Below are positions 2,313 to 15,632 of a DNA stretch of 64,000 nucleotides, in pieces. The position numbers were made by a program, and so were the translations under genes. A model generated the notes under the pieces. The model saw only the letters and a list, made by a program, of their open reading frames with translations, was not told where the DNA came from and searched no databases. How positions within the stretch are numbered: the stretch's first letter is position 1; each line of letters starts with the position of its first letter. The DNA is taken from NCBI RefSeq assembly GCF_023231945.1, contig NZ_JAJLJH010000004.1:248001-312000 (forward strand), read 5' to 3'. Source of the DNA: Scleromatobacter humisilvae. Its GTDB lineage: Bacteria > Pseudomonadota > Gammaproteobacteria > Burkholderiales > Burkholderiaceae_C.

Positions 2313-2328
2313 TGCAGCAAGCGTGCCA
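2313..2328 (-). promoter_or_regulatory. Candidate sigma-54 promoter for the rhodanese-cytochrome b unit
   Basis: Read on the minus strand the sequence is TGGCAC-GCTTG-CTGCA. The invariant GG and GC dinucleotides are separated by exactly ten bases, as sigma-54 requires. One base departs from the -12 consensus (C for T). It lies about 73 bp before the ATG at 2240. Confidence 0.6.
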
Positions 2329-2542
2329 GCGGCCTGCGCCCCGCATCGGGCTGGCGGCGAGTTCGATGTCCACCAACCCGCGCTGCATTCCGCGCAATGC
2401 TTCATCGAACGTGCTGCACCTTCAACAGCGCCGCGCCGCGCGATCGCATGCGGCCCGGCGCGCAGGCCGCCTTGCTCGATCCGTCGACCGCGCAGGCGGC
2501 CGCGAGTTCGATCACGCAACGCATTTGTTTATCCGACGCCGA

Positions 2543-2559
2543 TGGCACAGGCGCTGCAT
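2543..2559 (+). promoter_or_regulatory. Candidate sigma-54 promoter for the TonB-dependent receptor
   Basis: Reads TGGCAC-AGGCG-CTGCAT, with GG-N10-GC spacing and a perfect -24 element. The predicted start site is near 2570, leaving a leader of about 37 bases before the GTG start at 2607. Between this promoter and the divergent one at 2313-2328 lies an inverted repeat, GTTCGATG at 2361 and CATCGAAC at 2403, that could be an activator site (inference). Confidence 0.62.
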
Positions 2560-2606
2560 TGGAGGGGCATCACCCTTTCCAGTTCCAACGCCATCGAGGA
2601 GTCTCA

Positions 2607-5249
2607 GTGAGCCGATCGTTCCTTCGCCTGCAACAACAAGAACACGCCAAGACCCGCTTCACCATCGCGCCCGTCGCGGCCGCGATCATCGCGCTTACCA
2701 TGACCGGCGCGTCCAACGCGCAATCCGCCGCCGCCGCCGCGGCCGCGCCAGCCGCCAGCAGCGCCGAGGCCGCGAACGAGGCCCCCGCGCTCGACGCCGT
2801 CACCGTCCACAGCCGCAACCGCATCGAACGGCTGCAGGACGTGCCGATCTCGGTGTCCGTCACCACGGGCGCCGAGCTCGCGCGGCTCGATGCCTACGGC
2901 GTCGACGCCATCGCCAAGCGCGCGGCCAACGTCTCGTGGAACCAGGGCAACCAGCGCACGAGCAGCCTGTCGATCCGCGGCATTGGCAAGATCGGCCAGA
3001 CCGAGGCGCAGGACCCCAGCGTCGGCGTGATCGTCGACGGCGTCAGCTATGCCTACAACGCGCTGACCTCCAGCTTCGACTTCGTCGATGTCGACACCGT
3101 CGAGGTCGCGCGCGGCCCGCAGGGCACGCTGCAGGGCAAGAACGCGAGCGTCGGCAGCATCACCATCAACTACAAGCGGCCGTCGTTCACGCCGACCGCC
3201 GACTACACGCTGGCGTTCGAGAAGAACAACGGCGTGCTGGGCGTCGCCGCGATCGGCGGCCCGGTGATCGACAACCTGCTGGCCTGGCGCGGCACGTTCT
3301 CGGTCGACCGCCAGCAAGGCCCGCGCGCCAACGCCTACAACCGCGACCAGACCTACACCAACACCGATCGCGTCTCGGGCCGCGTGCAGCTGCTGCTGAC
3401 GCCCAGCGACGACTTCAGCGCCCGCCTCGAAGGCGACGTGCAGCCGCGCGCCGGCGAGACCACCAACGGCAACACGATCAACACGCCCACGCCGGCGAAG
3501 TACGCCGACGGCGCCGCCAATCCGCTGACCACCGACGCATCCACCCGGCTCGCGCGCAGCTGGTTCGCCAACAACACGGGCTACAGCCTCGCGTCCTGGT
3601 ACGGCGCCATCAACAACGACGCGCAGCACGCGCTCGTCACCGGCAGCAACGGCGCGAGCACCGAGCTGGACTGGAAGCTCGCCAGCGGCCACACGCTGAC
3701 GTCCATCACGGCCTGGCGCTCGTACCACTTCGACGCGGTCAACGACGAAGGCACGCCGTTCGACGTCTACCGCAACTCCGGCGGCTTCTGGAACGACTAC
3801 CACCAGGCCAGCCAGGAGCTGCGCATCAGCTCGCCCACGGGCGGCTTCGTCGACTACCAGGCGGGCCTCTACTTCATCAAGGTCAACATCTCGGCCACGT
3901 ACAACCGGTCGTGGGGCAACGACGCGGGCGCCTGGTTCGCCAGCAACTCGCAATACTCGACGCTCGCCGCGACGCCCGCGGGCCAGCTGCTGATGGAGGA
4001 CTCGCTGGCCAACGCCTCGACCGCCTACAACTCGCCGGCCGGCAAGCAGACGATCGAGAACAAGAGCGGCGCCGCGTTCGCGCAGGCCAACTGGCACCTG
4101 ACCAGCGACTTCACGCTGACCACCGGCGCGCGGTTGACGCACGAGAACCGCACCAACGTCAGCAGCTCGTACGTGATCAACCCGGGCGACGGCGTCGACC
4201 TCGCCAACTTCAGCACCGGCACGACCGCGCAGCGCGACGCCGCAGCCGCGAAATACTTCGGCCCCGGCCGCACCTACGCGAGCCTGACGACGGCGGAGCT
4301 GGCGCAGGTCTCGGCGGCGCAAGCGATCCGCAAGGCCAACTTCGGGGTGCTGTTCCCCAGCACCGCGGCCAAGCCCTATCGCGCCAACCAGCCCGCGTTC
4401 GTGCTCAGCCCCAGCCTGAAGCTGACGCCCGACATCACCACCTACGCGTCCTACCAGCACGGCGAGAAGGCCGGCATCGCGCAGCTCGTCAACGGCATCT
4501 CGACGCCCGCGGCGGCCGAGAAGACCAACTCCTTCGAGCTCGGATTGAAGTCGGCGCTGCTGGACAAGACGCTGATCCTCAACGCCGACATCTTCGACAC
4601 GCTGATCCACAACTACCAGCAGGCGGTGCAGGTCGTCGACCAGTACACGACGGCGTTGAACCAGGCCGCGGGCAGCAACGTCGTGGCCTACACGTCGGCC
4701 ACGGGCAACGCGCCCAAGGTGGGCGTCTCCGGCCTCGAGGTCGACGGCGTCTATGCCGGCATCCCGCGCACGACGCTGCGTTTCTCGGGTGCCTACAACA
4801 GGGCGGTCTACAAGGACTTCCCGAACTCCGCGCAACCGGTGGAGAACGGCGACCTGACCGCGGCGTCCACCGTCACGGGGTTCGTGCATCCGGCCGAGCC
4901 GTATCGCAGCGTCAACGGCAAGACGCTGGCGGGCGCGCCGCGCTTCACGTTCAACGTCGGCGCCGACTATGCGCAGCCGGTCAGCGCCGACAAGGACGCC
5001 CACGTCAGCGCCAATCTCGCGTACAGCACCAGCTACAACACGGACGTGGCGCTGTCGAAGTACGCGGTCGTCGGCGCGCAGGCGCTGGTCGACCTCGCGG
5101 TGGGCGCCGGCAAGCACGACAAGAGCTTCGACGTCAGCGTGATCGTCAAGAACCTGTTCAACAACGAGACGCCGCAGGCGCGCACGTGGAACAGCGTCAC
5201 GCCGGCGAATCCGCGCACCTGGGGCATCCAGTTCACCGGCCGACTCTGA
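2607..5249 (+). CDS. TonB-dependent outer-membrane receptor
   Basis: An 880-residue receptor for energy-dependent uptake through the outer membrane. After a signal peptide (AAAIIALTMTGASNAQS) and an Ala-rich linker comes the plug domain, with VPISVSVTTGAEL, SIRGIG and VEVARGPQGTLQGKNA. The rest is a barrel rich in aromatic and Asn/Thr strands. The start is a GTG preceded by GAGGAG at ideal distance; upstream frame extensions lack a signal sequence. The last residues are FTGRL rather than the usual terminal Phe. The substrate is not evident: no siderophore-, cobalamin- or SusC-like signature is recognised. It is the first gene after a sigma-54-type promoter, and an ExbB/ExbD/TonB set at 13-15 kb could energise it. 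Confidence 0.92.
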   Translation: MSRSFLRLQQQEHAKTRFTIAPVAAAIIALTMTGASNAQSAAAAAAAPAASSAEAANEAPALDAVTVHSRNRIERLQDVPISVSVTTGAELARLDAYGVDAIAKRAANVSWNQGNQRTSSLSIRGIGKIGQTEAQDPSVGVIVDGVSYAYNALTSSFDFVDVDTVEVARGPQGTLQGKNASVGSITINYKRPSFTPTADYTLAFEKNNGVLGVAAIGGPVIDNLLAWRGTFSVDRQQGPRANAYNRDQTYTNTDRVSGRVQLLLTPSDDFSARLEGDVQPRAGETTNGNTINTPTPAKYADGAANPLTTDASTRLARSWFANNTGYSLASWYGAINNDAQHALVTGSNGASTELDWKLASGHTLTSITAWRSYHFDAVNDEGTPFDVYRNSGGFWNDYHQASQELRISSPTGGFVDYQAGLYFIKVNISATYNRSWGNDAGAWFASNSQYSTLAATPAGQLLMEDSLANASTAYNSPAGKQTIENKSGAAFAQANWHLTSDFTLTTGARLTHENRTNVSSSYVINPGDGVDLANFSTGTTAQRDAAAAKYFGPGRTYASLTTAELAQVSAAQAIRKANFGVLFPSTAAKPYRANQPAFVLSPSLKLTPDITTYASYQHGEKAGIAQLVNGISTPAAAEKTNSFELGLKSALLDKTLILNADIFDTLIHNYQQAVQVVDQYTTALNQAAGSNVVAYTSATGNAPKVGVSGLEVDGVYAGIPRTTLRFSGAYNRAVYKDFPNSAQPVENGDLTAASTVTGFVHPAEPYRSVNGKTLAGAPRFTFNVGADYAQPVSADKDAHVSANLAYSTSYNTDVALSKYAVVGAQALVDLAVGAGKHDKSFDVSVIVKNLFNNETPQARTWNSVTPANPRTWGIQFTGRL

Positions 5250-5362
5250 GGCTCGCTGCCTCGTTCCCAACAGCGCGTGGAGCGCGCTGTTCGCCAGGCA
5301 ACAGTCCGCCGCCTCCACTGCCTCGAAAGCATCGAAACCTGCCTCTGCGCACGCCGGAAAGC

Positions 5363-5378
5363 TGGCGCGCCATTTGCG
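5363..5378 (+). promoter_or_regulatory. Candidate sigma-54 promoter for the DUF1549 gene cluster
   Basis: Reads TGGCGC-GCCAT-TTGCG with GG at 5364, ten bases, then GC at 5376. It has one mismatch in the -24 box and a perfect TTGC -12 box. It lies 47 bp before the ATG at 5425. As the third match in one locus beside a sigma-54 activator it is more credible than it would be alone. Confidence 0.55.
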
Positions 5379-5424: not shown

Positions 5425-8025
5425 ATGAACAAATCCCTCACCGCCGCCCTTCTCTCACTCGGATTCGTCTCGCTCGGATTCGTCGCCGCCGGCTCGACCG
5501 CCGCCGACGCGCCGGGCGTCCCGGCATTGCCGGCCGCGCATCCCACGCTGCCGTCGACCGCCACCGCCGCCGTGCTCGCCGCCGCCTCGCCGGCCAGCGC
5601 CGCGATCGCGCGCGCATGGGCGTACACGCCCGTGAACCGGCCCGCGCTGCCGACCGTCAAGGCCAGGGCCTGGGTGCGCACGCCGGTCGACGCGTTCGTG
5701 CTTGCCAGGCTCGAGGAGAAGGGCCTCGCACCCTCGCCCGACGCCGACCGCGCCACCTTCATCCGCCGCGCGACGCTCGACGCGTGGGGCCTGATCCCGA
5801 CGCCCGAGGACGTCCACGCCTTCGTCAACGACAAGTCGCCCAAGGCCTACGAGAAGCTCGTCGACCGCCTGCTCGCGTCGCCGCACTACGGCGAGCGCCA
5901 GGGCCGGCGCTGGCTCGACCTGACGCGCTACGCCGACTCCGACGGCTACAACGCCGACGGCACGCGGCCCAACATCTGGCGCTACCGCGACTACGTGATC
6001 GCGGCGTTCAACAGCGACAAGCCCTTCGACCGCTTCGTCAAGGAACAGATCGCCGGCGACGAGCTCTGGCCCGATCGCAACGAGGCGCTCGTCGCCACCG
6101 GCTTCCTGCGCAACTTCCCCGACGAGATCAACGCGCGCGACCTCAACCTGAAGAAGCAGGAGGTCGCCAACGACCTCACCGACACGGTCAGCTCCGTCTT
6201 CCTCGGAACCACGCTCGGCTGCGCGCAGTGCCACGACCACAAGTTCGACAAGATCTCGCAGAAGGAGTACTACCAGTTCCAGGCCTTCTTCGTGAACGCG
6301 AGCTGGAACGACGACGTCAAGGCGCTCGAAGGACCGACGCGCGCCGAGTGGATCGTCAAGCAGGCGAAGTGGGAGGAGGCGACCAAGGACATCCGCGCGC
6401 AGCAGGACGCGCTGCTCAAGCCCGTCATCGAGAAGCTCGAGAGCGACCGCCTGTCCGGCTTCGTGCCCGACACGCGCACGTCCATCACCAAGCCCGAGGC
6501 CGAGCGCGACGCCTACGACCGCTGGATCTACCACCGCAACCTGTGGACGCTGTCGGGCCGCACGCGCAACGCGGTCGCCGACCTGAAGAAGAAGGACAAG
6601 GACGGCTACGCGAAGTACCAGGCGCTCGAGGAACAGCTGAAAGCCTTCGACGCGATCAAGCCGCAGGATCCGGGCAACATCTCGACGATGTCCGAGCTCG
6701 GACATTCGGATGCCCCACCCACGTATGTGCTGTTCAAGGGCATCTACGACCGCAAGCTCGACGAGGTGCAGCCCGGCTTCCCGGCGCTGCTGACCAGCGC
6801 CAAGCCGAACATCGTGCCGACCGCGACGTCCTCGGGCCGCCGCACCGCGGTCGCAGAGTGGATCACCTCGCCGGACAACCCGCTGACCGCGCGCGTGTTC
6901 GTCAACCGCCAGTGGGCGCAGGTGTTCGGCAACGGCATCGTCGAATCGGTGAGCGACTTCGGCAAGATGGGCGTCAAGCCGACCAACCCCGAGTTGCTGG
7001 ACTGGCTGTCGGCCGAGTTCGTGCAGGACGGGTGGAGCGTGAAGAAGCTGCAGCGCGAGATCCTGCTGTCGCACACCTACCGGCAGGCCTCGGCGCCGCG
7101 CTCCGAGGCCGAGAAGATCGACCCGACCAACAAGCTGCTGTGGGCCTTCCCGCGCCAGCGCCTGGAGGCCGAGGAGATCCGCGACTCGCTGCTCGAGGCC
7201 TCGGGCCTGCTCGAGGACAAGCTGGGCGGCCCGTCCGTCTTCCCGCCGCTGCCGGCCGGCACCACGGCGCCGAACCGCAACTTCTGGATCACGTCGGACA
7301 ACCCGCACGACGTCAACCGCCGCAGCGTCTACGTCTTCATCCGCCGCAACCTGCCCTACCCGCTGCTGGACACCTTCGACTGGGCCAACCCGCAGATCGT
7401 GCACAACAAGCGCGATGTGACGACGACCGCGCCGCAGGCGCTGGCGCTGATCAACAGCGACCTGGTCTACAGCTGGTCGAAGTCGCTCGCCGGCCGCGTG
7501 ATCAAGGAAGTGCCCAAGGGCGGCGACGCGGCGCGCATCGCTCGCGTCTACGAGATCCTCTACGCGCGCCAGCCCGACGCGTTCGAGAAGACGCGCCTGC
7601 TGGCCTTCCTCGAGAGCCAGCAGGACGTGCAGGCCAGGCAGATCGCGGCCGGCAAGAAGGTGAACCTGCCGGATGGCTTCGGCGTCGCTCCGCCACTCGA
7701 GTCGGAGGTCGCCAGGCTCTACAAGGTCGCCTACGGGCGCGCGCCGGATCGCTTCGAGCAGGCCGCGCTCGTCGAGTTCATCGACAAGCAGAAGGCCAGG
7801 GAAACGAGGTGGGCCACCGCGCCGAACCCGAACTACGACCCGGTGGCGCTGGCCTCGGCCGCCGCGGCCGCGAACGCCGCCGCCAACACGCCGCCGCCCG
7901 CCGACGACGCCACCTCCGCCAGCGACGACAGCCTGAGGAACGACCCCGAGGCCGCGCACGCCGCCGCCTTCGTCGACCTCGTGCACGCGCTGGCCAACGC
8001 CAACGACTTCCTCTACCGCTTCTGA
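5425..8025 (+). CDS. DUF1549/DUF1553 domain protein with a c-type haem motif
   Basis: An 866-residue exported protein of the family usually seen in Planctomycetes and Verrucomicrobia and almost always encoded beside DUF1501. It has a signal peptide, then the DUF1549 region (about residues 80-290) with RRWLDLTRYADSDGYN and LGCAQCHDHKFD. The latter is a CxxCH motif at C266-C269-H270. DUF1553 occupies the C-terminal part (about residues 480-760), with FVNRQWAQVFGNGIV and NLPYPLLDTFDWANP. The molecular function of the family is unknown; covalent haem is expected from the motif. The ATG at 5425 gives the signal peptide. It is followed 14 bp later by the DUF1501 gene, so the two are probably translated together. 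Confidence 0.9.
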   Translation: MNKSLTAALLSLGFVSLGFVAAGSTAADAPGVPALPAAHPTLPSTATAAVLAAASPASAAIARAWAYTPVNRPALPTVKARAWVRTPVDAFVLARLEEKGLAPSPDADRATFIRRATLDAWGLIPTPEDVHAFVNDKSPKAYEKLVDRLLASPHYGERQGRRWLDLTRYADSDGYNADGTRPNIWRYRDYVIAAFNSDKPFDRFVKEQIAGDELWPDRNEALVATGFLRNFPDEINARDLNLKKQEVANDLTDTVSSVFLGTTLGCAQCHDHKFDKISQKEYYQFQAFFVNASWNDDVKALEGPTRAEWIVKQAKWEEATKDIRAQQDALLKPVIEKLESDRLSGFVPDTRTSITKPEAERDAYDRWIYHRNLWTLSGRTRNAVADLKKKDKDGYAKYQALEEQLKAFDAIKPQDPGNISTMSELGHSDAPPTYVLFKGIYDRKLDEVQPGFPALLTSAKPNIVPTATSSGRRTAVAEWITSPDNPLTARVFVNRQWAQVFGNGIVESVSDFGKMGVKPTNPELLDWLSAEFVQDGWSVKKLQREILLSHTYRQASAPRSEAEKIDPTNKLLWAFPRQRLEAEEIRDSLLEASGLLEDKLGGPSVFPPLPAGTTAPNRNFWITSDNPHDVNRRSVYVFIRRNLPYPLLDTFDWANPQIVHNKRDVTTTAPQALALINSDLVYSWSKSLAGRVIKEVPKGGDAARIARVYEILYARQPDAFEKTRLLAFLESQQDVQARQIAAGKKVNLPDGFGVAPPLESEVARLYKVAYGRAPDRFEQAALVEFIDKQKARETRWATAPNPNYDPVALASAAAAANAAANTPPPADDATSASDDSLRNDPEAAHAAAFVDLVHALANANDFLYRF

Positions 8026-8039
8026 ACACGGAGATCACC

Positions 8040-9467
8040 ATGAGCCATTCATCGCGTCGCGACTTCCTCGGCCACGCCGGCCTCGGCCTCGGCGCCGCCG
8101 CTCTCGGCGGGCTGGGCCTGCAGCTCGACGTGGCCTCGGCCGCCGAGCTGGAGGATCCGCAGGCCCCGCGCCAGCCGCATTTCCCGGCCAAGGCCAGGTC
8201 GGTCATCTGGCTGCACATGGCCGGCGCGCCCAGCACGCTGGACCTGTTCGACTACAAGCCCGAGCTGGTCAAGCTGGCCGGCAAGCCGCTGCCCGACTCG
8301 TTCGCCAAGAACCTCAAGACGGCCACCGATGGCGGCGTCGGCAACCTGCTGGCCACCAAGCGCACGTGGAAGCAGTACGGCGAGACGGGCGCGTGGGTGT
8401 CGGACTTCCTGCCCAATCTCTCGAAGCAGGTCGACGACATCGCCTTCCTCAAGGGCTGCAAGACCGAGGGCGCGACGCACATCATCTCGTCGCTGAAGCT
8501 GCACACCGCGGGACTGGTGCCGGGACGTCCGGCGCTGGGCTCGTGGGTGCAGTACGCGCTCGGCTCGGCCAACCCCGACCTGCCAGCCTTCGTCGTGCTG
8601 CCCACCGGCACCGGCGCGGCCGGCGGCGGGCGCGGCGCGGTGATCTGGAGTTCGGGCTTCCTGCCCGCGGCCTACCAGGGCACGGCCTTCCGCAAGGGCG
8701 ACTCGCCGATCCTGCACCTGGCGCGGCCCGAAGGCGTCATCGACACCGAGCAGCGCAACACGCTGGACCTGATCGCCGCGCTCAACGAACACGGCGCGAT
8801 CACGCGCACCGGCGACACCGAGCTGGCCGCGCGCTCGAAGTCCTACGAACTCGCGTACCGCATGGAGAAGTCGGCGCCGGAGGCGGTCGATCTCGCCAAG
8901 GAGACGGCGGCGACGCGCGAGCTCTACGGCATCGGCGCCAAGGAGACCGACGAGTTCGGCACCGCGCTGCTGCGCGCGCGCCGGCTGGTCGAGCGCAACG
9001 TGCGCTTCATCCACGTGATCTCCGGCGCGCCGGACAACTCGGTCGACAGCTGGGACGCGCACAACAACCTCGAGAAGAACCACGCCGTGATGAGCCGGTC
9101 GGTCGACAAGCCCATCGCCGGCCTGCTGGCGGACCTGAAGTCGCGCGGGCTGCTCGACTCGACGCTGGTCGTGTGGACGTCCGAGTTCGGCCGCACGCCC
9201 TACGGCCAGAGCGGCAACGGCCGCGACCACAACCCGTGGGGGTATACGAGCTGGCTCGCAGGCGGCGGCATCAAGCCGGGCAGCTACGGCTCGACCGACG
9301 AGATCGGCCTGCGCGCGCAGACCGGCATCGTCGACACCTACGACCTGCAGGCAACCATCCTGCACCAGCTGGGCCTGGACAACCGCAAGGTCACGTTCCA
9401 GTACCAGGGCCGGCAGGAGCGTCCGACCACGGTGTTCGGCGACGTCATCAAGGAGATCGTCACCTGA
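8040..9467 (+). CDS. DUF1501 family protein, Tat-exported
   Basis: A 475-residue protein starting with the twin-arginine signal SSRRDFLGHAGLGLGAAALGG, so it is probably folded in the cytoplasm and exported to the periplasm. DUF1501 proteins share the alkaline-phosphatase/sulfatase fold; here DNSVDSWDAH, VVWTSEFGRTPYGQSG and GRDHNPWGYTSW match the conserved family blocks. No reaction is firmly known for the family. It follows the DUF1549/DUF1553 gene, as is typical, and its stop codon overlaps the start of the next cytochrome gene (TGATG). I infer that it works with the DUF1549 protein on a substrate brought in or released by the TonB-dependent receptor. Confidence 0.9.
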   Translation: MSHSSRRDFLGHAGLGLGAAALGGLGLQLDVASAAELEDPQAPRQPHFPAKARSVIWLHMAGAPSTLDLFDYKPELVKLAGKPLPDSFAKNLKTATDGGVGNLLATKRTWKQYGETGAWVSDFLPNLSKQVDDIAFLKGCKTEGATHIISSLKLHTAGLVPGRPALGSWVQYALGSANPDLPAFVVLPTGTGAAGGGRGAVIWSSGFLPAAYQGTAFRKGDSPILHLARPEGVIDTEQRNTLDLIAALNEHGAITRTGDTELAARSKSYELAYRMEKSAPEAVDLAKETAATRELYGIGAKETDEFGTALLRARRLVERNVRFIHVISGAPDNSVDSWDAHNNLEKNHAVMSRSVDKPIAGLLADLKSRGLLDSTLVVWTSEFGRTPYGQSGNGRDHNPWGYTSWLAGGGIKPGSYGSTDEIGLRAQTGIVDTYDLQATILHQLGLDNRKVTFQYQGRQERPTTVFGDVIKEIVT

Positions 9468-9844
9468 TGCGCCGACTGATCATCGCCGCCGCGCAACTCG
9501 CGCTCGCGGGCGGCGCGCTGTGCGCCACGTTCGACGTCGACGGCGACCTGATGCGCGGCATCGACGACACCGCCAAGAGCCTCGACTCGAACGTCGCGCA
9601 GAAGGACGCCAAGGCCGCGGCCGCCGACGCGCGCTCGCTGGTCGACACCTTCGCGCACGTCGAGTCGCACTACGGCGAGAAGCCGGAGACGGCCGACGCC
9701 GCGGCCTTCGCCCACCACACGCAGGAGCTCGCCGCGCAGTCCCTCAAGGCCATCGAGGCCAACGACTTCGACGCCGCCGGCGATGCCGTGGCCCGACTCA
9801 CCCGCTCGTGCAAAAGCTGCCACGAGGTCTACAAGAAGGATTGA
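9467..9844 (+). CDS. Small monohaem c-type cytochrome (cytochrome c'-like), first of three
   Basis: A 125-residue periplasmic protein with a signal peptide ending near GGALCA and a C-terminal haem site CKSCHEVYKKD. A haem motif at the extreme C-terminus of an otherwise helical protein is the layout of cytochrome c'/c556. The ATG overlaps the stop of the DUF1501 gene by one base, indicating translational coupling. The middle is Ala/Asp-rich and helical. Its expected role is electron transfer for the DUF1549/DUF1501 pair; no enzymatic partner is proven. Confidence 0.82.
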   Translation: MRRLIIAAAQLALAGGALCATFDVDGDLMRGIDDTAKSLDSNVAQKDAKAAAADARSLVDTFAHVESHYGEKPETADAAAFAHHTQELAAQSLKAIEANDFDAAGDAVARLTRSCKSCHEVYKKD

Positions 9845-9845
9845 C

Positions 9846-10256
9846 ATGCGATCCAGTTCGCGCGCCCGCGCGACGTTCGCCGCCGTCGTCGTCATCCCGC
9901 TCGCCGCGACCGTCGTCACGGCCGCGCGCGCCGCGAGCGTGCTCGACTTCGACGTCTGGATGCGGGCCATCGACAAGCACAGCGTCGACGTGCAGAAGAA
10001 CATCGCCGCCAACAGGACCGACGCCGCGGTCGCCGACGCGCAGGAGCTCGCGCGCCTGTACGGCCTGATGGAGGCGTACTTCGTCGACGACGGCCACGCG
10101 CCGGACGCGGTGACGATGTCGCAGAGCGGCAAGGCGCTGGCCGCCGCGATCCCGACCGCGCTCGCGGCCCGGGACGTCGACGGCGCGGCGAAGTCCGCGC
10201 TCGATCTCGCGCACGCCTGCAACGACTGCCACGACAACCACAAGCCGTTCCAGTGA
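9846..10256 (+). CDS. Small monohaem c-type cytochrome, second of three
   Basis: A 136-residue protein with an N-terminal hydrophobic export signal (FAAVVVIPLAATVVTAARA) and a haem motif CNDCHDNHKPF near the C-terminus. It begins one base after the previous stop codon. The body is helical and shows only weak similarity to its neighbours, so the three cytochromes are not recent copies of each other. The export signal and haem motif place it in the periplasm. Its role is inferred from context only. Confidence 0.8.
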   Translation: MRSSSRARATFAAVVVIPLAATVVTAARAASVLDFDVWMRAIDKHSVDVQKNIAANRTDAAVADAQELARLYGLMEAYFVDDGHAPDAVTMSQSGKALAAAIPTALAARDVDGAAKSALDLAHACNDCHDNHKPFQ

Positions 10257-10276: not shown

Positions 10277-10756
10277 ATGACATCGATTCCGAGATCCCTT
10301 CGCCTCGCCGTGATCGCGGGCGCGCTCGTCGGCGCCGCCGCCGCAATCGCGCAGCAGGCGCCCAAGCCCGAGAACCTCATCAAGTGGCGCCAGTCCGCGT
10401 TCCAGGTCGTCGCCTGGAACTCCGGGCGCATCAAGTCCAGCCTCGACTCGGGCTACAACAAGGAGCAGGTGCTCAAGGCCGCGACCGCGATCGCGGCGAT
10501 CGCCAACTCCGGCCTCGGCAGCCTGTTCCCGGCCGGCACGGAGACCGGCAAGGGCTGGCACGACACGACGGCCAAGGCCGAACTGTTCGCCAACAGCGCG
10601 AAGTTCGCCGAGCTGGGCGGGGACTTCGGCAAGGAGTCGGGCGAGCTGGTGCGCGTCGTGTCCTCGGGCGCGGACGCCGCGGCCGTGAAGGACCAGTTCG
10701 GCAAGCTGCAGAAGACCTGCAAGTCCTGCCACGACGAATTCCGCAACGCCAATTGA
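10277..10756 (+). CDS. Cytochrome c' family protein, third of three
   Basis: A 159-residue periplasmic cytochrome with signal peptide (AVIAGALVGAAAAIA) and the best match to cytochrome c' in the cluster: IKWRQSAFQVVAWNSGRIKS at the N-terminus and KTCKSCHDEFR at the C-terminus. The ATG at 10277 gives a normal signal peptide. A GTG at 10253 that overlaps the previous stop is possible but adds nothing useful. Cytochromes c' have one five-coordinate haem and bind NO or CO, or pass single electrons. It is part of the polycistronic run that begins at 5425. Confidence 0.85.
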   Translation: MTSIPRSLRLAVIAGALVGAAAAIAQQAPKPENLIKWRQSAFQVVAWNSGRIKSSLDSGYNKEQVLKAATAIAAIANSGLGSLFPAGTETGKGWHDTTAKAELFANSAKFAELGGDFGKESGELVRVVSSGADAAAVKDQFGKLQKTCKSCHDEFRNAN

Positions 10757-10761
10757 ACGCC

Positions 10762-11472
10762 ATGAAAAACACGACACGATTCACCCTCGCCGCCGTCGCG
10801 CTCGCGGCCCTCGCGGGCGCGCACGCGCAGAACGCGCCCGCCGCCGCGGCCGCGGCGCCCGCGCCGCGCGCGCTGCCCAAGGACTTCAGCTTCTTCGTCA
10901 CGAGCCAGCCCATCGGCCAGGGCGGCAACCTCGGCGGCCTGGCCGGCGCCGACGCGCATTGCCAGAAGCTCGCCACGGCCGTGGGCCACGGCGAGCGCAC
11001 CTGGCGCGCCTACCTCAGCACGCAGGCGGCCGACGGCCAGCCCGCGATCAACGCGCGCGACCGCATCGGCGCCGGCCCGTGGACGAACGCGCGCGGCGCG
11101 GTCATCGCGCGCGACGTCGCGCAGCTGCACGGCGACACCGTCGAACTCGCGCAGCTGGGCAACAACCTCAGCAAGGCTACCGCCTACACCGAGACCGGCG
11201 AGATCCGCCCCGGCTTCGGCGACAAGCCCAACCAGCACGACATCATCACCGGCTCGCTGCCCGACGGCCGCGCGTACACCGACGCCGCCGACCACACGTG
11301 CCACAACTACACCAGCAGCGCCCCGGACGCGTCGACCCAGCTGGGCCACTTCGACCGCGCCGGCGGCGGCAACACGTCGTGGAACTCCGCGCACAAGAGC
11401 CGCGGCTGCAGCCAGGACAACCTGGTCAGCACCGGCGGCGCGGGCGACCTCTACTGCTTCGCGGCGAATTGA
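10762..11472 (+). CDS. Secreted lectin-like protein (DUF1554/C-type-lectin-like fold)
   Basis: A 236-residue exported protein: signal peptide ending near GAHAQ, an Ala/Pro linker, then one domain from about residue 40. The domain has FFVTSQPIGQGGNLGGLAGADAH, CQKLA, TWRAYLS and DRIGAGPW. It ends with a cysteine-containing block (TCHNYTSS, SRGCSQDN, LYCFAAN). This arrangement is that of the DUF1554-type lectin-like domain found in secreted proteins of many Gram-negatives; the cysteines probably form disulfides. It is the last gene of the cluster starting at 5425, 5 bp after the cytochrome c' gene. A binding role on the cell surface is an inference. Confidence 0.75.
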   Translation: MKNTTRFTLAAVALAALAGAHAQNAPAAAAAAPAPRALPKDFSFFVTSQPIGQGGNLGGLAGADAHCQKLATAVGHGERTWRAYLSTQAADGQPAINARDRIGAGPWTNARGAVIARDVAQLHGDTVELAQLGNNLSKATAYTETGEIRPGFGDKPNQHDIITGSLPDGRAYTDAADHTCHNYTSSAPDASTQLGHFDRAGGGNTSWNSAHKSRGCSQDNLVSTGGAGDLYCFAAN

Positions 11473-11520
11473 ACGCGGTCGTTGAGGCGCCGCCACCGGA
11501 GACCGTGAGCGATTGACGAC

Positions 11521-11930
11521 CGGATTGGGGTCTCGGACTGGGGTCACACGGATTGGGGTCAGTCGCGGATTGGGGTCAGGTCTTGCCTTTTGCCCATTTA
11601 CTGGGGTCAGGTCTTGCCTTTTGCCCGGGGCGCCCGCGGAAAAGAGGACGAATTCACCTCTGCGAAATCGCCGCTCAGTCGCATGAGCAACTGCAAGGTA
11701 CGGAGCAACGAGCTTGCGTGAGGGCCTCGAACGCGACCAGCAAGTACCGGCTGACAGCCCCCATTCGCACGACTGTGGCGCTCTGAAAACTGCAGGCAAA
11801 AGGCAAGACCTGACCCCAACGAGGAGGCAAAAGGCAAGACCTGACCCCAACGAGGAGGCAAAAGGCAAGACCTGACCCCAACGCGAACGCGTGTGACCCC
11901 AACGCGTGACCCCAACGCGTGCCTGCAACG
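11521..11930. repeat. Inverted array of 31-bp REP-like repeats
   Basis: Two plus-oriented copies of GGGGTCAGGTCTTGCC followed by TTTTGCC (units at 11570 and 11601) face three reverse-complement copies (11795-11819, 11826-11850, 11857-11881). In both arms the unit repeats with a 31-bp period. Shorter degenerate TTGGGGTC and GACCCCAA pieces extend both ends. The arms enclose about 170 bp of unique sequence with no recognisable gene. The core TCAGGTCTTGC resembles repeats seen around REP-associated tyrosine transposases in proteobacteria (from memory); no such transposase is present here. Confidence 0.85.
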
Positions 11931-11976
11931 CGTGCGCCCCCAACGCGAACCCGGGCGGAGCCAGATCCCTCGGCCT

Positions 11977-12891
11977 TCAGCGATTGGCGACGACTTCCTT
12001 GTAGACCCACGTCACGAAACGATCGCGCGTCGCCGGCGTGCCCTGCGGCACGTGCGCGTCGAAGTCCGCCGTCGGATGCGCGGCGATGATCTCGTCCAGC
12101 GTCTTGCCCTCCTCGACGAGCTTCTGCACGCGGCCGCGCAGCGCCACGATGAGGTCGCGCTGCGCCAGCACGGCGTCGCGGGTGACGATCGGGCCGTGGC
12201 CGGGGATGATCTTCGTGGTCGGACCTGCGCGGTCGACGATCTCGCTCAGGCCCTCGAGGATGCCGGCCAGCGAGCCGCCGTTGGCGAGGTCGGCGTAGGG
12301 ATAGCCGACGCTGCGGTAGATGTCGCCGACGGCGAGGATGTCGTGGCGCGGGAACGAGATCACCGTGTCGCCGTCGGTGTGCGCGGCCTCGACCGGCAGC
12401 AGGCGCACGTCCTCGCCATCGATGTGGATCGACAGCGACGCGTTGTACGTGACGACGGGCAGCGCCTCCTCGGCCGCCGGCTTGCCGGGCGTGCCGTCGG
12501 CGGCCGCTGCGGGGTGCTCGAGGCGCCAGCGCAGCTGGTCGCGCGCGAAGATCGTCGCGCCCAGCTTCGCGAAGTTGGCGTTGCCGCCGACGTGGTCGGG
12601 GTGCACGTGCGTGTCGACCAGGAAGCGGATCGGCTTGTCCGAGACGCGGCGGATCGCGGCGACGAGCTTGTCGGTCAGCGGCGCGAACTGCGAGTCGACC
12701 AGCAGGATGCCGTCGGGCCCGGCCAGCACGCTGATGCGGCCGCCCAGGCCCTCGAGCGTCCAGAAATCCGGTGCGAGCTGCGTCGTCTTGATCTCGATCT
12801 TGCTGTAGTCCGGGTCGGATTGCGCCAGGGCCGGCAGCGCGGCGCAAAGTCCCAGGGTCAAGGCGGCGAACGAATGAGCGAGGCGTGTCAT
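11977..12891 (-). CDS. Exported MBL-fold metallo-hydrolase
   Basis: A 304-residue periplasmic protein with signal peptide ALTLGLCAALPALAQ and a metallo-beta-lactamase fold. The zinc motif THVHPDHVGGN gives the HxHxDH signature, with later ligands in AAHTDGDT and IIPGHGPIV. It belongs to the large group of exported MBL hydrolases that includes class B beta-lactamase relatives and quinoprotein-relay proteins. The substrate cannot be read from sequence. The gene stands alone between the REP-like repeat array and tonB, on the same strand as tonB, 67 bp after the tonB stop. Confidence 0.88.
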   Translation of the reverse strand: MTRLAHSFAALTLGLCAALPALAQSDPDYSKIEIKTTQLAPDFWTLEGLGGRISVLAGPDGILLVDSQFAPLTDKLVAAIRRVSDKPIRFLVDTHVHPDHVGGNANFAKLGATIFARDQLRWRLEHPAAAADGTPGKPAAEEALPVVTYNASLSIHIDGEDVRLLPVEAAHTDGDTVISFPRHDILAVGDIYRSVGYPYADLANGGSLAGILEGLSEIVDRAGPTTKIIPGHGPIVTRDAVLAQRDLIVALRGRVQKLVEEGKTLDEIIAAHPTADFDAHVPQGTPATRDRFVTWVYKEVVANR

Positions 12892-12958: not shown

Positions 12959-13726
12959 CTATCTCGCGAAGTTGACGTCCAAGGGCACCTGCACTTCCTC
13001 CGCGCCGCCCGCGGAGCAATGCATGCGCTTGACGGCCGCCTGCACATACTTCGTGTATTCCTTCGGCCCGGACAGGAACGCGACGTCCGTCACCTGCCCG
13101 CCGCGTACCGTCAGCCGCGTGCGCACCGTGCCGGCGATGCCGACGCGGTCGATCGCCTCTTCGAGCACGGCGGCCAGCACCGACTGGTAGCCGGGACACG
13201 CGAGGCTGACCTCCTGACGCACGACCGCCGGCGGCGCGGGCGCCGGGGCCGGCGTCGGGGCCGGCGGCGCCGCGACGACCGGCTCGGGCGGCGGCACCGA
13301 GGCCGTCGCGGTGATCGTCGGCGCGGGCGGCGCGGGCGGCGGCACCACCTCGGGCGGTGGCACGTAGGCCGGCGGCGGCGTCGCGGCCTTCGGCCGGTCG
13401 ACGACCTTCTCGATCTTCGGCGGCGGCGGTGGCGGGGGCGGCGGTGTCTCCGCAATGATGGCCATGTCGATCGGCTTGCGGACCGCGTCGACGACGTGCT
13501 GCGCGAGGCCCGACACCAGCGCCCAGCCGAACAGCACGTGGATGCCCGCGACGATGGCCAGGCCCGTGCCGCGCCCCCTGGCTTGCGCCTTCGCGCGCGC
13601 GGCCGGGCGCGCCAGCCGCGGGAACGCCAGCACCTCGGCGGGCTCGTGCGGCGCGCGCACGGGGATGGGCAGCGGCGCACGCAGCGCGACGCCGCGCGGC
13701 TCCAGTGAATCGAGTACAGCGCTCAT
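12959..13726 (-). CDS. tonB: Energy transducer TonB
   Basis: A 255-residue TonB. It has a cytoplasmic basic N-terminus, one membrane helix (GLAIVAGIHVLFGWALVSGL, about residues 54-73), then a long Pro-rich periplasmic spanner with a run of nine prolines. The C-terminal domain (about residues 170-255) is of the TonB/TolA type, with GTVRTRLTVRGGQVTDV. It couples the proton-motive ExbB/ExbD complex to outer-membrane receptors. It is last in the exbB-exbD-exbD-tonB unit, 7 bp after the second exbD. Likely clients in this window are the receptors at 2607 and 63276. Confidence 0.92.
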   Translation of the reverse strand: MSAVLDSLEPRGVALRAPLPIPVRAPHEPAEVLAFPRLARPAARAKAQARGRGTGLAIVAGIHVLFGWALVSGLAQHVVDAVRKPIDMAIIAETPPPPPPPPPKIEKVVDRPKAATPPPAYVPPPEVVPPPAPPAPTITATASVPPPEPVVAAPPAPTPAPAPAPPAVVRQEVSLACPGYQSVLAAVLEEAIDRVGIAGTVRTRLTVRGGQVTDVAFLSGPKEYTKYVQAAVKRMHCSAGGAEEVQVPLDVNFAR

Positions 13727-13733
13727 GACGTCC

Positions 13734-14180
13734 TCATTTCGGAATGAATTGCTCGCTGCCGGTGACGCCGACCCTGGTCAGCCCGGCCTGGTTGGCCGCC
13801 ACCATCACGGCGGCGAACGCGTCGTACTTCGCGCCCTGGTCGGGACGCACGTGCATCTCGGGCTGCTCCGGCTGCGCCGCGGCGGCGACGAGGTGCGCCT
13901 CGAGGTCGGCCGCGCCGGCCAGCGGCGTGCCGTTCCAGCTCAGCGCCCCGCCCGGCGCGATGTCGATCTGCACCACCTCGGGCTTGCGCGCGGCCGGCGG
14001 CGGATCGCCCACCGGCAGGTGCAGGTTGACCGCGTGCAGCTGCACGGGGATCGTGATGATGATCATCACCAGCAGCACCAGCATCACGTCGATCAGCGGC
14101 GTGGTGTTGATGTCGGCCACCGGCAGGTCGTCGACGACGGCGCGGCGGCGCGCGCGAGTCCTGTTGGGCATCGCGGTCAT
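13734..14180 (-). CDS. exbD: Biopolymer transport protein ExbD (second copy)
   Basis: A 148-residue protein with one N-terminal membrane helix and the conserved INTTPLIDVMLVLLVMIIITIP block, which holds the membrane Asp that carries protons. The periplasmic domain follows. It overlaps the first exbD by four bases (ATGA) and precedes tonB. The start ATG at 14180 lies within the overlap. It differs clearly from the first ExbD, so the pair is an old duplication, possibly forming a mixed ExbD dimer or a spare for another receptor. Confidence 0.92.
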   Translation of the reverse strand: MTAMPNRTRARRRAVVDDLPVADINTTPLIDVMLVLLVMIIITIPVQLHAVNLHLPVGDPPPAARKPEVVQIDIAPGGALSWNGTPLAGAADLEAHLVAAAAQPEQPEMHVRPDQGAKYDAFAAVMVAANQAGLTRVGVTGSEQFIPK

Positions 14181-14602
14181 CCCTTGGGCGGCGGTTCGGT
14201 GATGAAGCCGACGTGCCGGATGCCGGCGCGCTGGCAGGCGTAGAGCACGCGGCCGACGGGCGCGTAGTCGCTGTGCGCGTCGCCACGGATGTGGATCTCG
14301 GGCTGCGGATCCTGCACGGCGACGGCCTTGAGCCTGTCGGCCAGGGCCTCGTCGCCGGCGACGCGGCTGTCGAACCAGAACGTGGCGCCGCGGGCGTCCA
14401 CCGAGATCACGATGTCCCGGGGCGTGCTCTCGCGCACCTGGTTGCGCAGCTTGGGCAGCGCCACCGGCACCGAGAAGTTCGCGACGGGAATCGTGATCAG
14501 GAAGATGATCAGCAGCACCAGCATCACGTCGACCAGCGGCGTGGTGTTGATCGTCGACACCGCCTGGTCTTCGCCGCCGGCCGACGGCAGGTTCATCGCC
14601 AT
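14177..14602 (-). CDS. exbD: Biopolymer transport protein ExbD (first copy)
   Basis: A 141-residue ExbD with the motif STINTTPLVDVMLVLLIIFLITIP near the N-terminus (proton-carrying Asp in the single membrane helix) and a periplasmic domain with PEIHIRGDAHSDY. The start MAMNLPSAGG is chosen because it begins one base after the exbB stop and fits the ExbD N-terminus. Tandem exbD genes after one exbB are common in Xanthomonas and Burkholderiales. It works in the inner-membrane ExbB-ExbD motor. Confidence 0.92.
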   Translation of the reverse strand: MAMNLPSAGGEDQAVSTINTTPLVDVMLVLLIIFLITIPVANFSVPVALPKLRNQVRESTPRDIVISVDARGATFWFDSRVAGDEALADRLKAVAVQDPQPEIHIRGDAHSDYAPVGRVLYACQRAGIRHVGFITEPPPKG

Positions 14603-14603
14603 G

Positions 14604-15401
14604 TCAGGCCGCCGCTGTTGCCGCGACGCCCGCGCCGGCGTTCGCAGGCGACCCCGCGGCGGCGCTCGAGCCCAGCAGCACCGCATGCAGCTCGCTCGAG
14701 AAGTCGCGCACCTCGTCCAGCACCGCGCTGTTGCGCCGCAGGAGGAAGTTGTAGCCCAGCACCGCGGGCACGGCCACGGCCAGGCCCAGCGCCGTCATGA
14801 TCAGCGCCTCGCCCACCGGCCCCGCCACCTTGTCGATCGACGCCTGCCCCGCCAGGCCGATGGCCGTCAGCGCGTGGTAGATCCCCCAGACCGTACCGAA
14901 CAGGCCGACGAACGGCGAGGTCGAGCCGACCGTCGCCAGGAAGCTCAGCCCGACCGACAGCCGGCGCTGCACGCGCTCCGTGGCGCGATGCAGCGTCAGG
15001 TCGACCCAGTCGTTGAAGTCGACCTTGGCATGCAGGCCGCCGTGGCGGCGCGTCGCGTCCAGGCCGGCCTCGGCGATGTCGCGGAACGGGCTCGTCTCGT
15101 GCAGCTTGCCGGCGCCCGCCTGCACGGTGCCGGCGTCCCAGAACGTCGTCGAGGCCTTCTTCGCATGGCCGGCGATGCGGAACTGCTCCAGCACCTTGGT
15201 GACGATGACGTACCAGCTGCCGGCGCTGAACGCCGCCAGGATCAGCAGCACCGAGCGGGCGACGACGTCGCTGCCCTGCCAGAGGGCGCCGACGCCGTAC
15301 GGGTTGTCGGCGCCGCCCTGGGCATGCGCCAGCGGCCAGGCGAGCAAGGCCGCGACGGCCACGAGGCCGCGGGCGGATGGGGAGGAGAAGGTCGTGGTCA
15401 T
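14604..15401 (-). CDS. exbB: Biopolymer transport protein ExbB
   Basis: A 265-residue MotA/TolQ/ExbB family protein. An exported N-terminal segment (ARGLVAVAALLAWPLAHAQ) is followed by a membrane helix near residue 55 and the conserved pair of helices VGLSFLATVGSTSPFVGLFGTVWGIYHAL and GEALIMTALGLAVAVPAVLGYN. The ATG at 15401 (MTTTFSSP) is preferred over upstream in-frame codons because it gives a normal ExbB N-terminus. It is the first gene of the exbB-exbD-exbD-tonB operon. Confidence 0.92.
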   Translation of the reverse strand: MTTTFSSPSARGLVAVAALLAWPLAHAQGGADNPYGVGALWQGSDVVARSVLLILAAFSAGSWYVIVTKVLEQFRIAGHAKKASTTFWDAGTVQAGAGKLHETSPFRDIAEAGLDATRRHGGLHAKVDFNDWVDLTLHRATERVQRRLSVGLSFLATVGSTSPFVGLFGTVWGIYHALTAIGLAGQASIDKVAGPVGEALIMTALGLAVAVPAVLGYNFLLRRNSAVLDEVRDFSSELHAVLLGSSAAAGSPANAGAGVAATAAA

Positions 15402-15632
15402 GGAACTGCGCAATGCCTGCGTCGAGGTGGTTGACCCCTTCGCAGGTCGCAGCTTCCGTGCCACGCGAAGTGCATGAGCTTCTGCGCTCTTGCGGTCGCG
15501 CACGCGCCCTCGGGCGATGCGCGCCGCGAACCTGCGGCGCGCGCGCGTCAGGCCGTCACGACGCCGGCCGGATGTTGGATCGGCAACCGCCGCTGCTGCA
15601 ATCGGCGCAGTGGCCTGTTGCGCCGCTCGATA

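Follow-up and report, generated by a model that had tools for sequence, protein, structure and literature searches.

The 64,000-nucleotide stretch of the Scleromatobacter humisilvae genome analysed here (the window; all coordinates are positions within it) encodes an SfnR-type sigma-54 activator beside a module that comprises a TonB-dependent receptor, a rhodanese-like protein with a cytochrome b561, and an operon whose first two products are a PSCyt2-PSD1 haem protein and a DUF1501 protein. We interpret the module as a sulfur-limitation regulon under this activator, and put the probability of this interpretation at roughly three in four. Site conservation, activator kinship, a common activator site and co-occurrence are established in sequence. 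An initial annotation had proposed a local sigma-54 regulon under the neighbouring activator. That proposal is supported, at the level of sequence, by recurring sites and gene order, two rpoN genes and the co-occurrence of activator and module, and is here extended to a fourth promoter. The same annotation had called the module nutrient-responsive. Nutrient control stands but is narrowed, most likely, to sulfur limitation, because the activator is SfnR-like and adjoins the gene of a sulfate-binding protein.

Sigma-54 promoter sites and their conservation

The three GG-N10-GC sites listed in the initial annotation are all present. TGGCACGCTTGCTGCA lies on the minus strand (2313–2328) in front of the rhodanese–cytochrome b561 genes, TGGCACAGGCGCTGCA on the plus strand (2543–2558) in front of the TonB-receptor gene, and TGGCGCGCCATTTGCG on the plus strand (5363–5378) in front of the PSCyt2-PSD1 operon. 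The second had been given as 2543–2559, one base too long. Each site has the GG-N10-GC that characterizes sigma-54 promoters, with TGGCAC- and TTGC-like −24 and −12 boxes, and the genome encodes two rpoN genes. When the window was scored with an approximate sigma-54 matrix, the three sites ranked second, third (tied) and eighth (tied).

A loose sigma-54 pattern matched the window 25 times against 26.7 expected; this is chance level, and the motif alone therefore proves nothing. The strict pattern TGGCAC-N5-YTGCW was not enriched in the 6.27-Mb genome either, with 14 matches versus 32 for its backward control. Motif counting was accordingly rejected as sole evidence. Two of the 14 strict matches are the divergent pair described here, 230 bp apart.

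The main evidence for the sites is conservation. In the same-genus set, consisting of the window and three relatives, all three are kept and the gene order is the same. The longest invariant run in the four-genome intergenic alignment, which is 35% invariant overall, is the 17 bases at 2313–2329. Across genera, 10 of 11 regions upstream of the rhodanese gene contain TGGCAY-N5-YTGCW with at most one mismatch, at a distance of 46 to 88 bp from the gene start; the miss is G033. Upstream of the TonB-receptor gene, a site with at most one mismatch was found in 9 of 12 readable regions (a thirteenth was too short to be counted); the misses are G096, G227 and G297, and the best match in G067 sits further upstream than in the other regions. 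In the 400 bp before the PSCyt2-PSD1 start, GG-N10-GC with up to two mismatches is present in all 14 out-of-genus regions, the chance of so good a match being up to about a third per region. Gene starts were assigned manually, on the basis of tblastn hits or open reading frames (ORFs). The sites and the gene order recur, for the most part, across genera. On this evidence we consider the three sites very probably genuine sigma-54 promoters.

That they are instead chance GG-N10-GC matches, with the genes using other promoters, is highly improbable. The motif count in the window is indeed at chance, and the sigma-54 motif taken alone has a chance value of between 0.005 and 1.0, depending on the region. 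However, the sites are invariant within the genus, recur at the same place across genera and are coupled to an activator palindrome, described below, that was found independently at msu/sfn promoters.

The loose scan also yielded a fourth putative promoter, TGGCACGGAAGCTGCG (15448–15463, minus strand), which the initial annotation had not listed. It precedes the exbB-exbD-exbD operon, 47 bp upstream of the probable exbB ATG (15401), and lies within a 25-base run that is invariant with respect to G139, the single same-genus relative that could be compared. Its pattern has no other exact match in the genome, and its 16-mer also precedes the rhodanese gene in G030 and G156. The module therefore probably spans the activator to about 15460.

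Some further observations concern the surroundings of sigma-54 sites. Just upstream of the −24 box of the TonB-receptor promoter, a GTTCGATC..CGCAACGCATTTG..TATCC block (2506–2534) is near-invariant in the four same-genus genomes. A resembling CATTTG..TATCC occurs in G096, and integration host factor or another factor may be involved. Elsewhere in the genome, an rpoN-looking ORF, with an rpoN domain match at C2:232859, has a strict sigma-54 site (L022; G000:C2:231796-231811) that starts 27 bp upstream of its first ATG, which suggests that one of the two rpoN genes regulates itself.

The SfnR-type activator and its candidate binding site

The 5′ part of the activator gene occupies positions 1–587 of the window (minus strand; Pfam Sigma54_activat) and, as initially annotated, encodes a sigma-54 activator bearing GAFTGA. 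The gene runs 619 bp past the window, to L016:17382; read from the GTG at position 587, it spans 401 codons. The AAA+ domain begins at residue 24 and there is no N-terminal sensor domain; the activator is thus probably controlled through its own expression. The gene after it encodes a sulfate ATP-binding cassette (ABC) substrate-binding protein (490 bits versus a cut-off of 288).

The activator is 54% identical to that of the Pseudomonas msuE-ssuD-msuC locus over 384 residues and, over 375 residues, 54% identical to that of the sfnG-msuE locus of Burkholderia pyrrocinia. All three possess the helix-turn-helix signature NQ...LG-[ILV]-[ST]-RN, which is absent from the six other activators recovered from the S. 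humisilvae genome (four were not recovered). The fetched stretch includes an msu or sfn gene for eight of the nine best-listed plasmid relatives of the activator, exemplified by msuE-ssuD-msuC in Pseudomonas and sfnG-msuE in B. pyrrocinia and Azospirillum. SfnR is induced by sulfate starvation under the control of CysB. Since sfnG was not found in the S. humisilvae genome at E values up to 1e-100, we call the activator SfnR-type and not SfnR proper, the dimethylsulfone regulator. We infer the sulfur responsiveness of the module from this kinship.

The inverted repeat GTTCGATG (2361)/CATCGAAC (2403), which had been suggested as a possible binding site, is present but is not conserved in the three same-genus genomes. 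It was rejected as the activator site in favour of the palindrome CTGYTG-N6-CARCAG, which fits much better. The palindrome was first seen in the rhodanese–TonB divergent regions of relatives, some of which also supply the PSCyt2-PSD1 regions considered below, and the one-mismatch threshold was chosen after the window had been scanned. One candidate site, with one mismatch, lies at 2411–2428 and is common to both divergent promoters. Another, also with one mismatch, lies upstream of PSCyt2-PSD1 at 5287–5304, 31 bp from a weaker candidate with two mismatches at 5256–5273. A possible, weak site precedes exbB at 15593–15610.

Among 14 held-out PSCyt2-PSD1 upstream regions, ten contain the palindrome with at most one mismatch, five of them perfectly, and nine of the ten have it on the upstream side of the sigma-54 site. 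The chance of such a match is about 1% per region according to dinucleotide shuffles and higher, about 1 to 7%, in natural, largely coding 400-bp segments from those loci. The held-out set leaves out the window and the three same-genus genomes, from which the motif came, as well as two Zoogloea, two Methylobacter, one Methylocapsa and one Methylosinus region; with those six distant regions added, the palindrome is found in 11 of 20. A Zoogloea copy was missed through the 400-bp limit and the hand-set starts: its tandem palindromes, 32 bp apart, lie upstream of a sigma-54 site with one mismatch. As a separate observation, one intergenic region of Paucibacter sp. B2R-40 (L057/L096) holds three perfect palindromes.

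The msu/sfn loci were not used to derive the motif. The SfnR/SfnG comparison set comprised 15 loci, namely the nine best listed of 231 plasmid records with a match and six others; L194 was dropped as it has no msu/sfn gene. In 11 of the remaining 14, the palindrome with at most one mismatch and a sigma-54 site precede an msu/sfn gene (the misses are L082, which is truncated, L083 and L085). The two elements are 39 to 178 bp apart, or about 300 bp in L196. Tandem spacing is similar at module and msu/sfn loci: of 26 palindrome pairs 25–70 bp apart, 16 are spaced by 29–33 bp, with 31 bp in the window and in Pseudomonas and 30 bp in Variovorax and Burkholderia cenocepacia.

Genome-wide, the exact palindrome occurs in 12 places versus 39 for its backward control. 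It is therefore informative only in combination with a sigma-54 site in front of a gene, and was rejected as a marker on its own. Sigma-54-like matches near the 12 places have one or two mismatches, and the sole one-mismatch match is without the GC. Among the 14 strict sigma-54 sites of the genome, only the two described here have a palindrome with at most one mismatch inside 250 bp. A recurrent one-mismatch palindrome within the activator gene was dismissed as a coding false positive. We regard CTGYTG-N6-CARCAG as a candidate SfnR-type activator site, the same as that at msu/sfn promoters.

We then consider the distribution of activator and module. PSCyt2-PSD1, searched for at E values up to 1e-50 across 299 genomes of the family, is present in 16 genomes (12 of 141 genera). 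The activator, searched for at E values up to 1e-115 with six candidates scored per genome, is present in 22: 14 of the 16 genomes with PSCyt2-PSD1 and 8 of the 283 without it (Fisher p ∼1e-16, uncorrected for relatedness). At the 16 relative loci, some of which are cut by contig ends, the fetched stretch includes the activator in seven and a sulfate-binding protein in five. The eight activator-positive, module-negative genomes were viewed over a few kb around the activator; in one (G008, 65% complete), cytochrome b561 and sulfate-binding protein genes adjoin it. Among six distant carriers, close relatives of the activator (53 to 64% identity) occur in Zoogloea, a Methylobacter draft and a Cellvibrionaceae draft. 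The Methylobacter draft, which is gammaproteobacterial, also has the palindrome without mismatch and a sigma-54 site before the rhodanese gene. Two betaproteobacterial carriers, Paucibacter sp. B2R-40 and Zoogloea sp. LCSB751, come from records that bear no metagenome-bin label. Recurrent PSCyt/PSD and DUF1501 proteins are also a feature of Planctomycetota, Verrucomicrobiota and Acidobacteriota.

These data bear on the signal to which the activator responds. It may be an SfnR relative that answers another nutrient (nitrogen, carbon, phosphorus or a metal), its sulfur neighbours being incidental; without a sensor domain its signal is unreadable from sequence, and the copies in alphaproteobacterial methanotrophs occur without this activator. 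We think this improbable, however, as the palindrome and its tandem spacing match those of msu/sfn promoters and a sulfate-binding-protein gene is found both next to the activator here and in the five relative loci.

Module products and a possible role in sulfur acquisition

The divergent gene pair on the minus strand encodes a cytochrome b561-type membrane protein (888–1685; Pfam Ni_hydr_CYTB) and the rhodanese-like protein, which has a signal-like N-terminus (1704–2240; Pfam Rhodanese). The TonB-dependent outer-membrane receptor gene follows on the plus strand (2607–5249; Pfam TonB_dep_Rec_b-barrel and Plug; GTG start inferred). In the operon downstream, also on the plus strand, PSCyt2-PSD1 (5425–8025; Pfam DUF1549 and DUF1553) carries one CAQCH haem motif and the DUF1501 protein (8040–9467) a twin-arginine translocation signal. 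The next three genes encode small proteins with signal-like N-termini and one CxxCH each: a cytochrome c′-like protein (9467–9844; CKSCH), a protein of no Pfam family (9846–10256; CNDCH) and a cytochrome c′ (10277–10756; CKSCH). The last product is an endostatin/DUF1554-like, lectin-like protein with a signal-like N-terminus (10762–11472; weak Pfam matches below curated cut-offs).

The remaining genes are on the minus strand. They encode a metallo-beta-lactamase-fold protein with a weak match to the SoxH-related quinoprotein relay family (11977–12891), a proline-rich TonB-like protein (12959–13726; called from gene order, with no Pfam match), two copies of ExbD (13734–14180 and 14177–14602; Pfam ExbD) and ExbB (14604–15401; Pfam MotA_ExbB; start codon inferred). 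Between the convergent lectin-like and metallo-lactamase genes, the intervals 11520–11640 and 11794–11947 hold a 31-bp unit, AGGCAAAAGGCAAGACCTGACCCCAACGAGG, repeated 2.9-fold, together with inverted copies upstream detected by eye.

The AlphaFold model of the DUF1501 protein, with a predicted local distance difference test score (pLDDT) of 86.3, resembles the alkaline phosphatase/sulfatase superfamily. The best Foldseek match was choline sulfatase (E value 1.8e-7, TM-score 0.34), TM-scores being low overall (0.28–0.39). VIA Z scores against PafA, NPPs and sulfatases were 17 to 20, with root-mean-square deviations of 3 to 4.4 over 241–281 residues. Ser65, Asp71, Asp339, His341, Asp396 and His397 are present in all 46 aligned proteins; metal-type ligands were assigned by conservation and not by superposition. 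The model and this conservation thus indicate a predicted alkaline phosphatase superfamily fold with conserved Asp/His metal-type ligands. The protein does not class as a formylglycine (type I) sulfatase, since the motif is absent. Residue 59 is His in 10 of the 46 proteins (Phe in 35, Tyr in one), including that of the window, and may be an extra ligand. The whole-chain PSCyt2-PSD1 model (pLDDT 84.5; domains not folded apart) had no PDB match at E values up to 0.001, its best VIA Z score being 6.5 over 68 residues. A PDB sequence search gave no match for either family.

The substrate and chemistry of the module, as given here, are hypotheses. Sulfate shortage would raise expression of the activator itself, by CysB-type control as in SfnR. 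The activator would bind the CTGYTG-N6-CARCAG palindromes and switch on at least four sigma-54 promoters, those of the TonB receptor and its ExbB-ExbD-ExbD energiser, of the rhodanese and cytochrome b561, and of the operon for PSCyt2-PSD1, DUF1501, three small c-type haem proteins and the lectin-like protein. A TonB receptor with a dedicated ExbBD points to import, and the receptor might take up a sulfur compound whose size or scarcity prevents adequate entry through porins. Once it is in the periplasm, DUF1501 and PSCyt2-PSD1 would release its sulfur, electrons passing via the c-type cytochromes and cytochrome b561, and the freed sulfur would enter the cell through sulfate uptake. That sulfur acquisition is the purpose of the module we propose tentatively, at a little under even odds. 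The more specific proposal, a periplasmic haem-linked desulfurisation of a TonB-imported sulfated or sulfonated molecule by PSCyt2-PSD1/DUF1501, without formylglycine or cytoplasmic flavin chemistry, is possible but doubtful. If so, the PSCyt/DUF1501 pairs of Planctomycetota and Verrucomicrobiota may do related work on sulfated organic matter.

Alternatively, sulfur shortage might induce a module that serves in redox or sulfite/peroxide stress, or in rerouting electrons, during starvation. The several c-type haem proteins, cytochrome b561 and rhodanese would suit such a role, redoxin-type genes occur in relatives, and an excerpt of a 2025 Pseudomonas paper ties sulfur starvation to antioxidant defence (PMC12581299). 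By contrast, the receptor and its dedicated ExbBD point to import of a specific compound, and the sulfate-binding-protein gene adjoins the activator here and recurs at relative loci. A stress role is unlikely, though not negligible. We consider distinctly improbable a module for acquiring or handling a metal (iron, copper or a lanthanide), of the usual TonB kind and incidentally controlled by sigma-54. In favour of it are the receptor with its dedicated ExbBD, weak NCBIfam kinship to siderophore-type receptors and the occurrence of the module in methanotrophs. Near the cluster, G156 has an ORF that resembles a metal P-type ATPase when judged by eye (L059:34–1479) and G297 encodes an HlyD/CusB-type protein (L057:3062–4642), either of which may be a chance neighbour. 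However, no Fur-type regulator or siderophore gene was found among the scanned proteins, which cover part of the neighbouring genes, and the regulator and its sites are of the sulfur type.

Several points weigh against the sulfur-limitation interpretation. The compared genomes are phylogenetically non-independent. With respect to DUF1501, C/S-x-P-x-R is absent from the window protein and the C form from all 46 aligned rows. In G293 and G282 (a broken copy) the module gene is present and the activator was undetected, and a Polaromonas draft has both sites and no close activator. Both the palindrome and the sigma-54 site are missing at the alphaproteobacterial Methylocapsa and Methylosinus copies, which are also without a close relative of the activator; the genes therefore occur outside this regulon. 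PSCyt2-PSD1 has a weak palindrome or none in G066, G096b, G033 and G067, and the same holds for the rhodanese or TonB genes in G227, G067, G033 and others. In G154 the palindrome is found on the downstream side of the sigma-54 site, and upstream of exbB it has two mismatches. Finally, no palindrome with at most one mismatch lies near the gene of the one alkanesulfonate monooxygenase in the S. humisilvae genome, and the activator thus does not rule all sulfur genes.

Other features were seen around the gene cluster in relatives. In Methylosinus, an Rrf2-family regulator is encoded directly upstream of PSCyt2-PSD1 (L093:9204–9647), a possible regulator replacement. In Paucibacter sp. B2R-40 (L057/L096), a single TonB receptor is flanked by two PSCyt2-PSD1/DUF1501 pairs. 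Some fetched stretches hold nitrate/taurine/sulfonate-type ABC genes (below curated cut-offs), a gamma-glutamyltransferase or a luciferase-like monooxygenase, which may be chance neighbours.

Relation to known systems

Excerpts of He et al. 2017 (PMC5615132) describe PSCyt genes beside families of unknown genes in some Verrucomicrobia, often with sulfatase genes nearby, and state that the function of PSCyt genes is wholly unknown. Some of the domains are also mentioned in excerpts of PMC5888151, PMC2754498 and PMC4960237. Among the matches listed from open-licence PMC articles, none connects DUF1501 or PSCyt/PSD proteins to SfnR or to starvation for sulfur. The regulator belongs to a known kind, and the target module is, to the extent of these searches, new to an SfnR-type regulator. 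Placing PSCyt/PSD and DUF1501 proteins under an SfnR-type sulfur switch in betaproteobacteria yields a concrete, testable hypothesis, sulfur acquisition, and with it a first testable role for a large protein family of unknown function. It would also join outer-membrane import to a regulon known for flavin monooxygenases, and the palindrome coupled to a sigma-54 site would provide a sequence rule for finding further sulfur-limitation genes.

The closest likeness is to SfnR and the sfnFG and msuEDC sulfonate–dimethylsulfone regulons of Pseudomonas and Burkholderia. It extends to the sensor-less activator with 54% identity and the helix-turn-helix signature, the palindrome with a tandem spacing near 31 bp, and the sigma-54 sites. 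Whereas the targets of those regulons are flavin monooxygenases, the targets here make up an import and periplasmic haem/hydrolase module in a genome without sfnG. The alkaline phosphatase/sulfatase superfamily resembles DUF1501 in the predicted fold and the invariant Ser/Asp/His set, from which DUF1501 departs in having neither a formylglycine motif nor a PDB sequence match. The PSCyt2-PSD1/DUF1501 pairs of Planctomycetota, Verrucomicrobiota and Acidobacteriota are alike in that related proteins are encoded near each other, but the pair described here stands in proteobacteria, with TonB/ExbBD, SfnR-type control and a DUF1501 protein that has His59.

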